Shown here in pieces: positions 795 through 63,108 of a stretch of 64,000 nucleotides of DNA; positions within the stretch are counted from its first letter, which is position 1; every line of letters begins with the position of its first letter. The notes under the pieces are model-generated. The model was given only the letters and a program-made list of their open reading frames with translations. It was not told where the DNA came from and did no database searches. The position numbers and the translations under genes are program-made. Origin of the DNA: Enterobacter sp. RHBSTW-00175. Lineage in GTDB: Bacteria; Pseudomonadota; Gammaproteobacteria; Enterobacterales; Enterobacteriaceae. Location: positions 2,170,001-2,234,000 of the forward strand of contig NZ_CP055930.1 in NCBI RefSeq assembly GCF_013927005.1, read 5' to 3'.

Positions 795-810
795 TTTTGT
801 GCGGGCTGGT

Positions 811-1266
811 GCCCTCACTCCGACCCTCTCCTACTGGGTTGAGGGTTCCCCAGAAAAAATACGGGCACGTACGACCCCCTCTCCTTTTTGGGGAGAGGGG
901 GAACATACAGCTCAGGTGGTCATTCCGTTCACTTTATGGTCCTTGCTACTCTGTCACCACAATACCGGTGAACGTGCCAGGGTAGCTCACCGCCGCTACC
1001 CTGGCGACCCGGGCTCCCGGCAAGAAAATCGTCGCTTCGCGATGCCCTCAGCGTTTGCTCCAGGCTAATCGGGGACGGGCGGATGAAACGTCCCTGTAAA
1101 GCCGCCCTCGCCGCGCATCCATGCGCGGCGCCCCGGCCTTCCGTAAACACTTCGGCGATTTTCAGCCGGACCATGGAGCTGCGGTAAGTCTTTTATTTCA
1201 ATGGCGTAATATCATCGCTGAAGAAAGACAAAAATTACTGGGGAACCCTCTCCCACCGGGAGAGGG
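811..1266 (+). repeat. MITE-like intergenic element, copy A (inverted copy at 59093-59545)
   Basis: Non-coding element between ibpB and yidE. The reverse complement of 59093-59545 matches it along its length; between about 916 and 1120 I count only three differences. The ends form terminal inverted repeats: GGGTTCCCCAG at 843-853 and its complement CTGGGGAACCC at 1238-1248, each beside CCCTCTCC-type palindromes (875-901; 1246-1254 with 1258-1266). The core has a 9-bp hairpin, CCAGGGTAG to CTACCCTGG, near 986-1013. No conserved reading frame is evident. The short ORFs across it, including a long upstream extension of yidE, are judged fortuitous. It looks like a non-autonomous mobile element or a structured RNA. 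Confidence 0.75.
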
Positions 1267-1280
1267 CGCAAACACAAAAA

Positions 1281-1302
1281 ACGGTCACCTTTGGGTGACC
1301 GT
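1281..1302. terminator. Hairpin after repeat copy A
   Basis: ACGGTCACC (1281-1289) pairs with GGTGACCGT (1294-1302). The run of six A's just before it becomes a U-tract when read on the minus strand, so the stem is best as a minus-strand terminator. On the plus strand it is followed only by a broken T-run. It may insulate yidE from upstream transcription. Confidence 0.5.
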
Positions 1303-1405
1303 TCTACTTTTACCTTCGGCTTTTTTGTGCGCCATCGCCCATACAACCGCGTCCGGCTCTGAGAGAATCCTTCTTATAACTAAGGTTATGCACAGGAAGT
1401 GGATC

Positions 1406-15688: not shown

Positions 15689-15751
15689 TATTTTATAGAC
15701 AAAGATTGTCAGAGGGTACATACTCAGAAACGTCAAAATCCGTGCCTTAAA

Positions 15752-15780
15752 TTGCGCGTTCGTCGCCGATCGCGTATACT
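15752..15780 (+). promoter_or_regulatory. istR-1 promoter
   Basis: -35 TTGCGC (15752-15757), a 17-base spacer and -10 TATACT (15775-15780). The first transcribed base would be G15787, the expected 5' end of IstR-1. It has no LexA box of its own, consistent with constitutive expression. Confidence 0.8.
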
Positions 15781-15786
15781 TTTTGC

Positions 15787-15862
15787 GTTGACGTAACACA
15801 GTGTGTTCTGCGGTTACCAGCCGCAAACCCTGAAAAAAACCTCGCTCCGGCGGGGTTTTTTG
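15787..15862 (+). ncRNA. istR: Antitoxin small RNA IstR-1
   Basis: RNA of about 75 nt that base-pairs with the tisB leader and prevents TisB synthesis. It begins GTTGACGTAACACAGTGTG, whose 18-base match to the tisB leader is exact. A middle hairpin (TGCGG to CCGCA near 15809-15825) follows, and the end is an intrinsic terminator, CCTCGC (15840-15845) with GCGGGG (15850-15855) and six T's. Size, order and divergence from tisB match E. coli. Confidence 0.9.
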
Positions 15863-59092: not shown

Positions 59093-59545
59093 CTTTCCCC
59101 GTGGGCTGAGGGTTCCCCAGTAATTTTTGTCTTTAATTCAGCGATGATATTACGCCATTGAATTAAGGGACTTACAGCGGTGTCATGGTCCGGCTGAAAA
59201 TCGCCGAAGCGTTTACGGAAGGCCGGGGTGATGCGCGGCGAGGGCGGCTTTACAGGGATGTTTCATCCGCCCGTCCCCGATTAGCCTGGAGCAAACGCTG
59301 AGGGCATCGCGAAGCGACGATTTTCTTGCCGGGAGCCCGGGTCGCCAGGGTAGCGGCGGTGAGCTACCCTGGCACGTTCACCGGTATTGTGGTGACAGAG
59401 TAGCAAGGAACGTAAAGTGAACGGAATGACCACCGCAGCCGTATGTTCCCCTCACCCCAACCCTCTCACCAAAAAGGAGAGGGAGCCGTCCGTGCTCGTA
59501 TTTTTGTGGGGATTCCTCAACCCCGTGGGAGAGGGTTAAGGGGAC
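59093..59545 (-). repeat. MITE-like intergenic element, copy B (inverted relative to copy A)
   Basis: Reverse complement of 811-1266. The terminal GGGTTCCCCAG is at 59110-59120; the other end has a decayed GGGGATTCCTC near 59508. CCCTCTC palindromes lie at 59461-59483 and 59533. The hairpin core CCAGGGTAG/CTACCCTGG lies at 59344-59371. Relative to copy A it lacks about 10 bases beside the GCGCAT palindrome. It fills the whole gap between the methyltransferase gene and the next gene; no CDS is apparent in it. Confidence 0.75.
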
Positions 59546-63013: not shown

Positions 63014-63108
63014 TGGCGGAAGATCACAGGAGTCGAACCTGCCCGGGAACGCTGGCGTCCCCAACTGGATTTGAAGTCCAGCCACCTCACCGGAGATGAC
63101 GATCTTCC
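63014..63108 (-). tRNA. selC: tRNA-Sec (UCA)
   Basis: 95-nt selenocysteine tRNA. Reading the minus strand: 5' GGAAGATCG, extended acceptor/D arm, anticodon TCA (63072-63074 on plus as TGA) in CTTCAAATCC, long variable arm, T-arm GGTTCGACTCC, CGATCTTCC-type acceptor and encoded CCA (TGG at 63014-63016). Nearly identical to E. coli selC. A frequent island insertion site; here its 3' end faces the DUF3644 gene 8 bases away. Confidence 0.97.

Follow-up and report, generated by a model that had tools for sequence, protein, structure and literature searches.

We examined a 64,000-nt stretch of the genome of Enterobacter sp. RHBSTW-00175 (referred to here as the window), which carries two inverted copies of a short repeat. 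The first copy lies between ibpB and a yidE-type transporter gene, at what we call site 1. Positions 811 to 1266 align along their full length with the reverse complement of positions 59093 to 59545. The original prediction had described two inverted copies with about three mismatches in the core, and this was borne out: over the 214 core positions compared, the copies were 93.9% identical, with 3 mismatches and one 10-base deletion in copy 2, which takes out part of one hairpin (P4). Of the features that it had listed, the inverted repeats (GGGTTCCCCAG), the palindromes (CCCTCTCC), and a central hairpin were all present, the hairpin measuring 11 bp by eye rather than 9 bp. The features of both copies are collected in Table 1. 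Two open reading frames (ORFs) overlap copy 1 (799 to 1068, plus strand, 89 aa; 929 to 1174, minus strand, 81 aa), and a coding role for them was set aside because structure accounts for the conservation. Elsewhere in the window are an istR antisense RNA (15731 to 15861; RF01400, 130.1 bits) and a selenocysteine tRNA gene (63018 to 63108; RF01852).

Table 1. Coordinates of the two window copies, their parts, and adjoining features
Feature	Position in window	Strand	Basis
Left arm of BoxC-like target palindrome, CCCTCACTCCGACCCTCT	812..829		empty sites in relatives
Left 9-bp target duplication, copy 1, CCTACTGGG	830..838		7/9 identical to 1252-1260 by eye
MITE copy 1, terminal repeats TTGAGGGTTCCCCAG ... 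CTGGGGAACCCTC	839..1251		~413 bp (413 by eye, 414 by script)
Structured RNA unit GGUC...GACC, ~255 nt	918..1172	-	covariation; boundaries by eye
Helix GTGAACG (968-974) with CGTTCAC (926-932)	926..974	-	by eye
11-bp hairpin GCCAGGGTAGC/GCTACCCTGGC (976-986 with 995-1005)	976..1005	-	compensatory changes, columns 191-223
Central domain, covariance model R1, 128.3 bits	1023..1162	-	R1 search
Hairpin P5, tip UUUACAGGGACGUUU, GGA in loop	1077..1107	-	GGA in 87/93 units
Hairpin P4, RNA GCCGCGCAUGGAUGCGCGGC, GGA in loop	1110..1129	-	GGA in 91/93 units
Right target duplication, copy 1, CCCACCGGG	1252..1260		by eye
Right arm of target palindrome, AGAGGG	1261..1266		sequence and empty sites
Terminator-like hairpin downstream of ibpB, outside the element	1280..1303	+	window scan
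Target duplications of copy 2, CCCACGGGG on minus strand	59097..59105 and 59521..59529		exact, 9 bp
MITE copy 2, 415 bp, inverted relative to copy 1	59106..59520		end search
RNA unit of copy 2, 98.7 bits, 10-base deletion in P4	59197..59326	+	R1 search

The repeat is present in its own genome in numbers far beyond chance. With the best 40 of 131 candidates scored, BLAST with a 456-bp query gave at least 39 matches; with the best 150 of 1,737 scored, a covariance model of the core gave at least 22. Copies were abundant in related genomes as well, in keeping with the reading of a dispersed element, one that is probably unlike the 127-bp ERIC repeat in length and sequence. Among 22 nonredundant copies, chosen from 43 extracted, mean column identity in the core was 0.85 to 0.96 in most 25-base windows and 0.75 in one. 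Outside the core, it fell to 0.65 to 0.67 over the 50 bases 5' of the core, was 0.76 in a single window on the opposite side, and was 0.84 to 0.87 at the very termini. The predicted higher conservation of the core than of the ends was thus recovered over these 22 copies.

The transposon and its insertion target

The element carries CTGAGGG[AT]TCCCCA at both termini and is flanked by a 9-bp target duplication, and these 9 flanking bases form the tip of a hairpin. Most copies are 424 to 429 bp long (413 and 415 bp in the window), one is 497 bp and contains a 75-bp insert, and the elements are too short to encode a transposase. Both ends were located in 25 of the 28 stretches read (27 sources), and the duplication was exact in 12 of these 25, copy 2 included; in this search, we rejected L008 (521 bp, with mismatches at 9 of 9 flank bases) as spurious, and no pair of ends was located in L006 or L009. 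For copy 1, the script used a shifted frame with 4 mismatches, and the 7/9 identity in Table 1 comes from the frame set by eye. In one E. hormaechei genome, both ends were found at 17 of 20 loci, 7 of the 17 with an exact duplication. Several elements have shifted or inverted 9-mers in place of exact duplications, which we read as probable junction changes between palindromic arms.

At site 1, the conserved flanks are 520 bases apart in the window and 50 to 149 bases apart in 28 of the 29 relatives read; in the 29th (L085), a 1.36-kb gap holds an IS481-family insertion. The element is absent from site 1 in 28 of the 29 relatives, a count that stops short of 29 because one gap includes 46 unread bases. 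Site 2 was apparently occupied in at least two relatives (G157 and G164). An anchor motif located 27 of the site 1 sites. A perfect CCCTCNCCC..GGGNGAGGG hairpin was kept at 14 of these 27, and the full triplex pattern CCCTCNCCC N3-6 GGGNGAGGG N3 GGGNGAGGG, as given in an excerpt of PMC4666352 and with 3 or 4 bases allowed in the last spacer, was found at 11; the remaining anchored empty sites have imperfect hairpin versions or other repeats. Since the hairpin is kept at empty sites, the outer CCCTCTCC palindrome is older than the insertion and, on this comparison, is a BoxC-like insertion target and not part of the element. The terminal palindromes had been predicted as ends of the element; their sequence stands, and their outermost arms now fall to the target, a known BoxC repeat.

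The likeness to BoxC, also described as the TMECO intrastrand-triplex repeat, extends to the outer palindrome of the window copies and to about half of the empty sites. The excerpted text of PMC4666352 describes 23 such motifs in K-12 without an association with mobile elements and without mobility genes nearby. Here, in contrast, the repeat serves as a target, with the hairpin tip as the insertion site. We also noted a second element, of ∼1.3 kb, in BoxC hairpin tips, including tips inside MITE copies of the Enterobacter genome (G000:C1:1836286-1838031 and 2857085-2858843) and in L085. The L085 element encodes an IS481-family transposase, and the copies in the Enterobacter genome start alike by eye. 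BoxC tips seem to be the target of more than one element.

The earlier suspicion of a MITE agrees with the terminal inverted repeats, the empty sites, and the 9-bp duplications of the target, and we regard it as established by comparison that the window element is a nonautonomous transposon. A DDE_Tnp_1 match (E ≤ 1e-10), sought as an autonomous partner, was present in 7 of 30 same-genus genomes and absent from 23. Window-type ends were missing from all 30 DDE_Tnp_1 loci read, and the search turned up no transposase that has them. The closest likeness among insertion sequences is to IS10 (IS4 family), whose end we take to be CTGAGAGATCCCC, a sequence that occurs in 1,163 plasmid records. This end resembles CTGAGGG[AT]TCCCCA, and IS10 also produces a 9-bp target duplication; the window element differs in being without a recognized transposase and in the lack of its ends at the DDE_Tnp_1 loci. 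A phage origin received no match among 50,697 phage records, and 36 of 72,556 plasmid records matched, several of these being chromosome sized.

The structured RNA unit

The minus strand of positions 904 to 1172 has a minimum free energy of −123.6 kcal/mol (z, −3.47). We aligned 37 cores from ∼25 genomes by sequence alone, and RNAalifold returned 48 pairs for this set, 35 of which had at least one double change that kept the pair. Model R1, built from 32 cores and run over 63 loci, yielded 93 units (92 distinct), in which all 42 modeled pairs showed compensatory double changes. In these units, 93.1% of the cells were paired, versus 67.1% after shuffling and 31 to 41% with the partner slid; the 93-unit alignment was fitted to the model structure, so this test favors the model, and the sequence-only alignment of 37 cores agrees with it. 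On the strand that carries GGA in its loops (the GGA strand), G-U cells exceeded A-C cells (37 versus 8 in the 37-core set and 74 versus 18 in the 93-unit set), which supports this strand as the RNA strand. Units in other genera, at 70 to 80% identity, keep their pairs through double changes. In the E. coli/Klebsiella type, GCGCTCC/GGAGCGC-like arms replace the helix CGTTCAC/GTGAACG (by eye; outside the model).

From this covariation, we consider it established that the cargo of the element is a structured RNA. Selection on the core, as originally proposed, is consistent with the structural constraint seen in both covariation and column identity. The same proposal had named gene conversion as another cause of core conservation, and this is not required, because the conservation spans many species with compensatory stem changes.

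Two hairpins of the unit, P4 and P5, hold GGA in the loop in 91 and 87 of the 93 units, respectively, and both do so in 85. The loop of a third hairpin, taken as a contrast, has GGA in 3 of the 93 (4 in a wider slice). The motif CANGGA occurs in 82 P4 and 59 P5 loops, a shorter CAGGA loop occurs in about 20 of the 93 P5 hairpins, and the stems beneath the GGA loops vary. The two GGAs are 19 to 36 nt apart (median, 25). A third such hairpin, GCCCCAGGGATGGGGC, lies on the 75-bp insert at four places in the Enterobacter genome. The SELEX consensus for CsrA, as it appears in the excerpt of PMC4347634, is RUACARGGAUGU in a hairpin, with ACA and GGA fully conserved. The strict core ACARGGA was found in 8 P4 and 33 P5 hairpins of 93 and is scarce because a G-C pair often sits below the loop; exact ACARGGAUGU was found in 6 P4 and 19 P5 hairpins of 93, and the full 12-mer was found in 1 of 93. 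Judged by their loops, the two hairpin tips resemble CsrA docking sites.

No Rfam 15 family reached its gathering score on the RNA unit in the searches made. The only recurrent match was to TwoAYGGAY (RF01731; cutoff, 43 bits), at 30.4 bits in the window and 29.1 to 34.6 bits elsewhere, the best on a core unit being a full-length Citrobacter match of 34.6 bits (E, 0.001; 601 bases searched). RF01731 and the unit share two adjacent hairpins with AYGGAY-type loops, and at some loci the match covers the full model (1 to 168) on the GGA strand. They differ in that the unit scores below threshold, has different outer domains, and is mobile and multicopy. Since all scores are below 43 bits, we call the unit TwoAYGGAY-like and not a member. 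RF01731 belongs to the same clan as CsrC (CL00106), and the available portion of PMC4333381 proposes it as CsrA binding from motif matches.

Among the CsrA-sequestering small RNAs (sRNAs), CsrB and CsrC also have repeated GGA loops. Model R1 had no match to CsrC, and the unit departs from CsrB/CsrC in that it offers only two sites (in some copies three) within a rigid multibranch fold, is dispersed in many copies, and has no promoter signal. The regulatory 5' tnpA RNA of IS200 is likewise a structured RNA of insertion sequence origin; unlike the unit, it derives from a transposase mRNA and is not MITE cargo, and its authors, in the excerpt of PMC12594629, leave protein titration possible. The excerpts returned by our literature searches included no publication that names the present element.

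Other carriers, distribution, and genomic context

Paired RNA units in Citrobacter, in the Enterobacter genome itself, and at other places have the ends of IS4, TAATGCC..TCAGTTAA[GC], at their borders. The K-12 IS4 ends, TAATGCCAGTCAGTTAAG and TAATGCCGATCAGTTAAG, match the ends of these paired elements, which hold RNA units where IS4 has its transposase. Among eight IS4-ended loci (two of which are the same place), two had a shared flank of 13 bases, one of 17, one of 11, and the duplicate pair of 10; at the other two (L038 and L237), it was imperfect. Inspection by eye shows split terminator stems with a T run behind them in most of these flanks, but not in L237. Five further Citrobacter loci had 12- to 13-base flanks with one mismatch (two loci), poor flanks (two), or none (one). 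Neither type of end was found in full at five Klebsiella loci or at the Leclercia and Kluyvera loci. On these comparisons, the RNA unit is independent of the window MITE and present in many genera.

Over the 63 loci searched, 51 R1 matches fell in loci with more than one match. Neighboring units less than 150 bases apart were head to head in 18 of 18 cases, and the eight wider gaps comprised five tandem, one convergent, and two head-to-head arrangements. Two IS4-ended loci in the Enterobacter genome (L039:5185-5660 and L040:4763-5254), where the model finds only a diverged partner unit, have flanks that resemble split terminator stems. In Citrobacter, C4 antisense RNA matches lie within ∼600 bases of a head-to-head pair (L226:1814-1999 and L227:3645-3829), and the same loci give subthreshold c4-a1b1 and isrK matches.

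Matches were found in at least 24 of 149 genomes of the family (BLAST, 5 candidates scored per genome) and in at least 28 of 247 genomes of the order (model, 13 candidates scored per genome), six other families included. A pattern scan of named genomes gave at least 119 stretches, and of the 80 listed, 78 were from Enterobacteriaceae, 1 was from Desulfacinum, and 1 was from Chryseobacterium. The double-hairpin pattern was also seen in seven viral contigs (L331 to L337). The six most deeply searched genomes each had at least 9 to 22 model matches; with the best 150 candidates scored per genome, these included at least 9 in K. pneumoniae, 18 in C. youngae, 21 in E. hormaechei, 11 in Leclercia, and 11 in Kluyvera.

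In E. coli, the core had a match in 5,374 of 5,426 complete genomes (over ≥80% of the core in 4,790), at a median of 3 places, and the full element (≥80% of the query covered) was found in 17 genomes. Nothing was annotated beneath the core match in 29 of the 30 E. coli rows listed. In K-12, an 88-bp inverted remnant is all that lies in the yegH-asmA gap, and BoxC-like repeats take the place of the unit at alx-sstT. Between yegH and asmA, the unit is in opposite orientations in L032 and L035 and truncated in K-12; the L032 unit is flanked by inverted REP-like sequences, which suggests inversion in place.

To describe the genomic context, we used the 133 pattern matches listed in 119 stretches and left out 42 that were paired or without a called neighbor. 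ORFs came from a simple caller (100-aa minimum), and units whose partner was too diverged for the pattern were counted as single. Among these listed matches, 91 units lay between convergent (51), tandem (35), or divergent (5) genes. The GGA strand was sense in 18 and antisense in 17 of the tandem pairs listed, which amounts to no orientation bias. Likewise, the region upstream of the 93 units showed no sigma-70 promoter signal (mean best score, 6.38 versus 6.41 in Markov shuffles), and no promoter was found inside copy 1. An independent sRNA gene is thus unsupported. Both genes next to copy 1 are on the plus strand, and the GGA strand of copy 1 is therefore antisense to each of them.

Possible roles of the mobile RNA

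The reading that we prefer, with a little less than even confidence, is that the RNA is a mobile, dispersed decoy for CsrA, transcribed by read-through. Binding is suggested by loop sequence and family resemblance, and transcription is suggested by placement. The transposon enters the tip of a BoxC hairpin and duplicates 9 bp of that tip. Its cargo, a structured RNA of ∼255 nt on the GGA strand (minus in copy 1, plus in copy 2), offers two neighboring GGA-loop hairpins in a context near the CsrA SELEX site, and CsrA dimers may bind them as a decoy or an anchor. The elements appear to lie mostly at gene 3' ends, in BoxC hairpins or split terminators, so read-through transcripts would include the RNA. 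Where units form head-to-head pairs, as is common in other genera, either direction of transcription would give one sense unit. The main weakness of the decoy reading is the absence of both a promoter signal and an orientation bias, and the second is that the strict SELEX core is matched only loosely; both would allow for an RNA involved in transposition or a role at the level of DNA. The window copies themselves speak against a decoy, in that the GGA strand of copy 1 is antisense to both neighbors and P4 of copy 2 is broken.

The RNA could instead serve the transposon, binding or guiding an IS4-type transposase or controlling its expression; every mobile copy would then have to keep the fold. 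We think this unlikely, although the unit lies within two kinds of IS4-family-like ends, seven copies in one E. hormaechei genome have equal model scores, and promoter signal and orientation bias are missing. Set against it are the retention of the RNA at all five Klebsiella loci that have neither recognized end type, the 23 of 30 same-genus genomes without the DDE_Tnp_1 match, and the two CsrA-type loops, which it leaves unexplained. To our knowledge, ordinary IS4-family elements require only their ends. That the element acts as DNA, with stems that form cruciforms or single-stranded hairpins during replication, recombination, or insertion, and with a coincidental likeness to CsrA sites, is in our view rather improbable. 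The G-U excess over A-C on one strand is not predicted by DNA pairing, and a GGA loop conserved in two unrelated stems would be unexpected, even though hairpins (BoxC and terminators) are targeted, long imperfect inverted repeats are often formed, stems are GC rich, and a promoter signal is absent.

Placement between convergent genes (51 of the 91 listed units, against 5 between divergent genes) is what a structured 3'-end element in cis on the neighboring mRNA would predict, acting as a stabilizer or a substitute for termination like some REP elements. Tolerated insertions would also settle near gene ends, however, and the tandem pairs listed show no strand preference, so we consider this very unlikely. 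Least credible to us is a decaying MITE whose core looks conserved solely because its copies amplified recently or underwent gene conversion. Several cores in the Enterobacter genome are indeed 98 to 99% identical, but this account is contradicted by covariation across genera, where units at much lower identity keep their pairs by double changes, and by the drift of the 50 bases 5' of the core while the core holds.

Returning to the CsrA decoy, we regard as possible, though somewhat doubtful, a wider picture in which an Enterobacterales superfamily of transposable decoys would carry two to three CsrA-type hairpins, move with at least two kinds of IS4-like ends, insert into hairpins at the 3' ends of genes, and draw on the transcription of neighbors. 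Gain and loss of copies would then retune Csr between species and strains, and head-to-head pairing would guarantee a sense unit from either side. BoxC repeats gain a concrete part as an insertion target. The unit itself is a structured RNA with covariation at every modeled pair, with a core that matches nearly all complete E. coli genomes and many genera, and it stayed below every Rfam 15 gathering score in our searches. If the proposed CsrA binding is true, mobile DNA would change the dosage of a global regulator through the decoys that it spreads.
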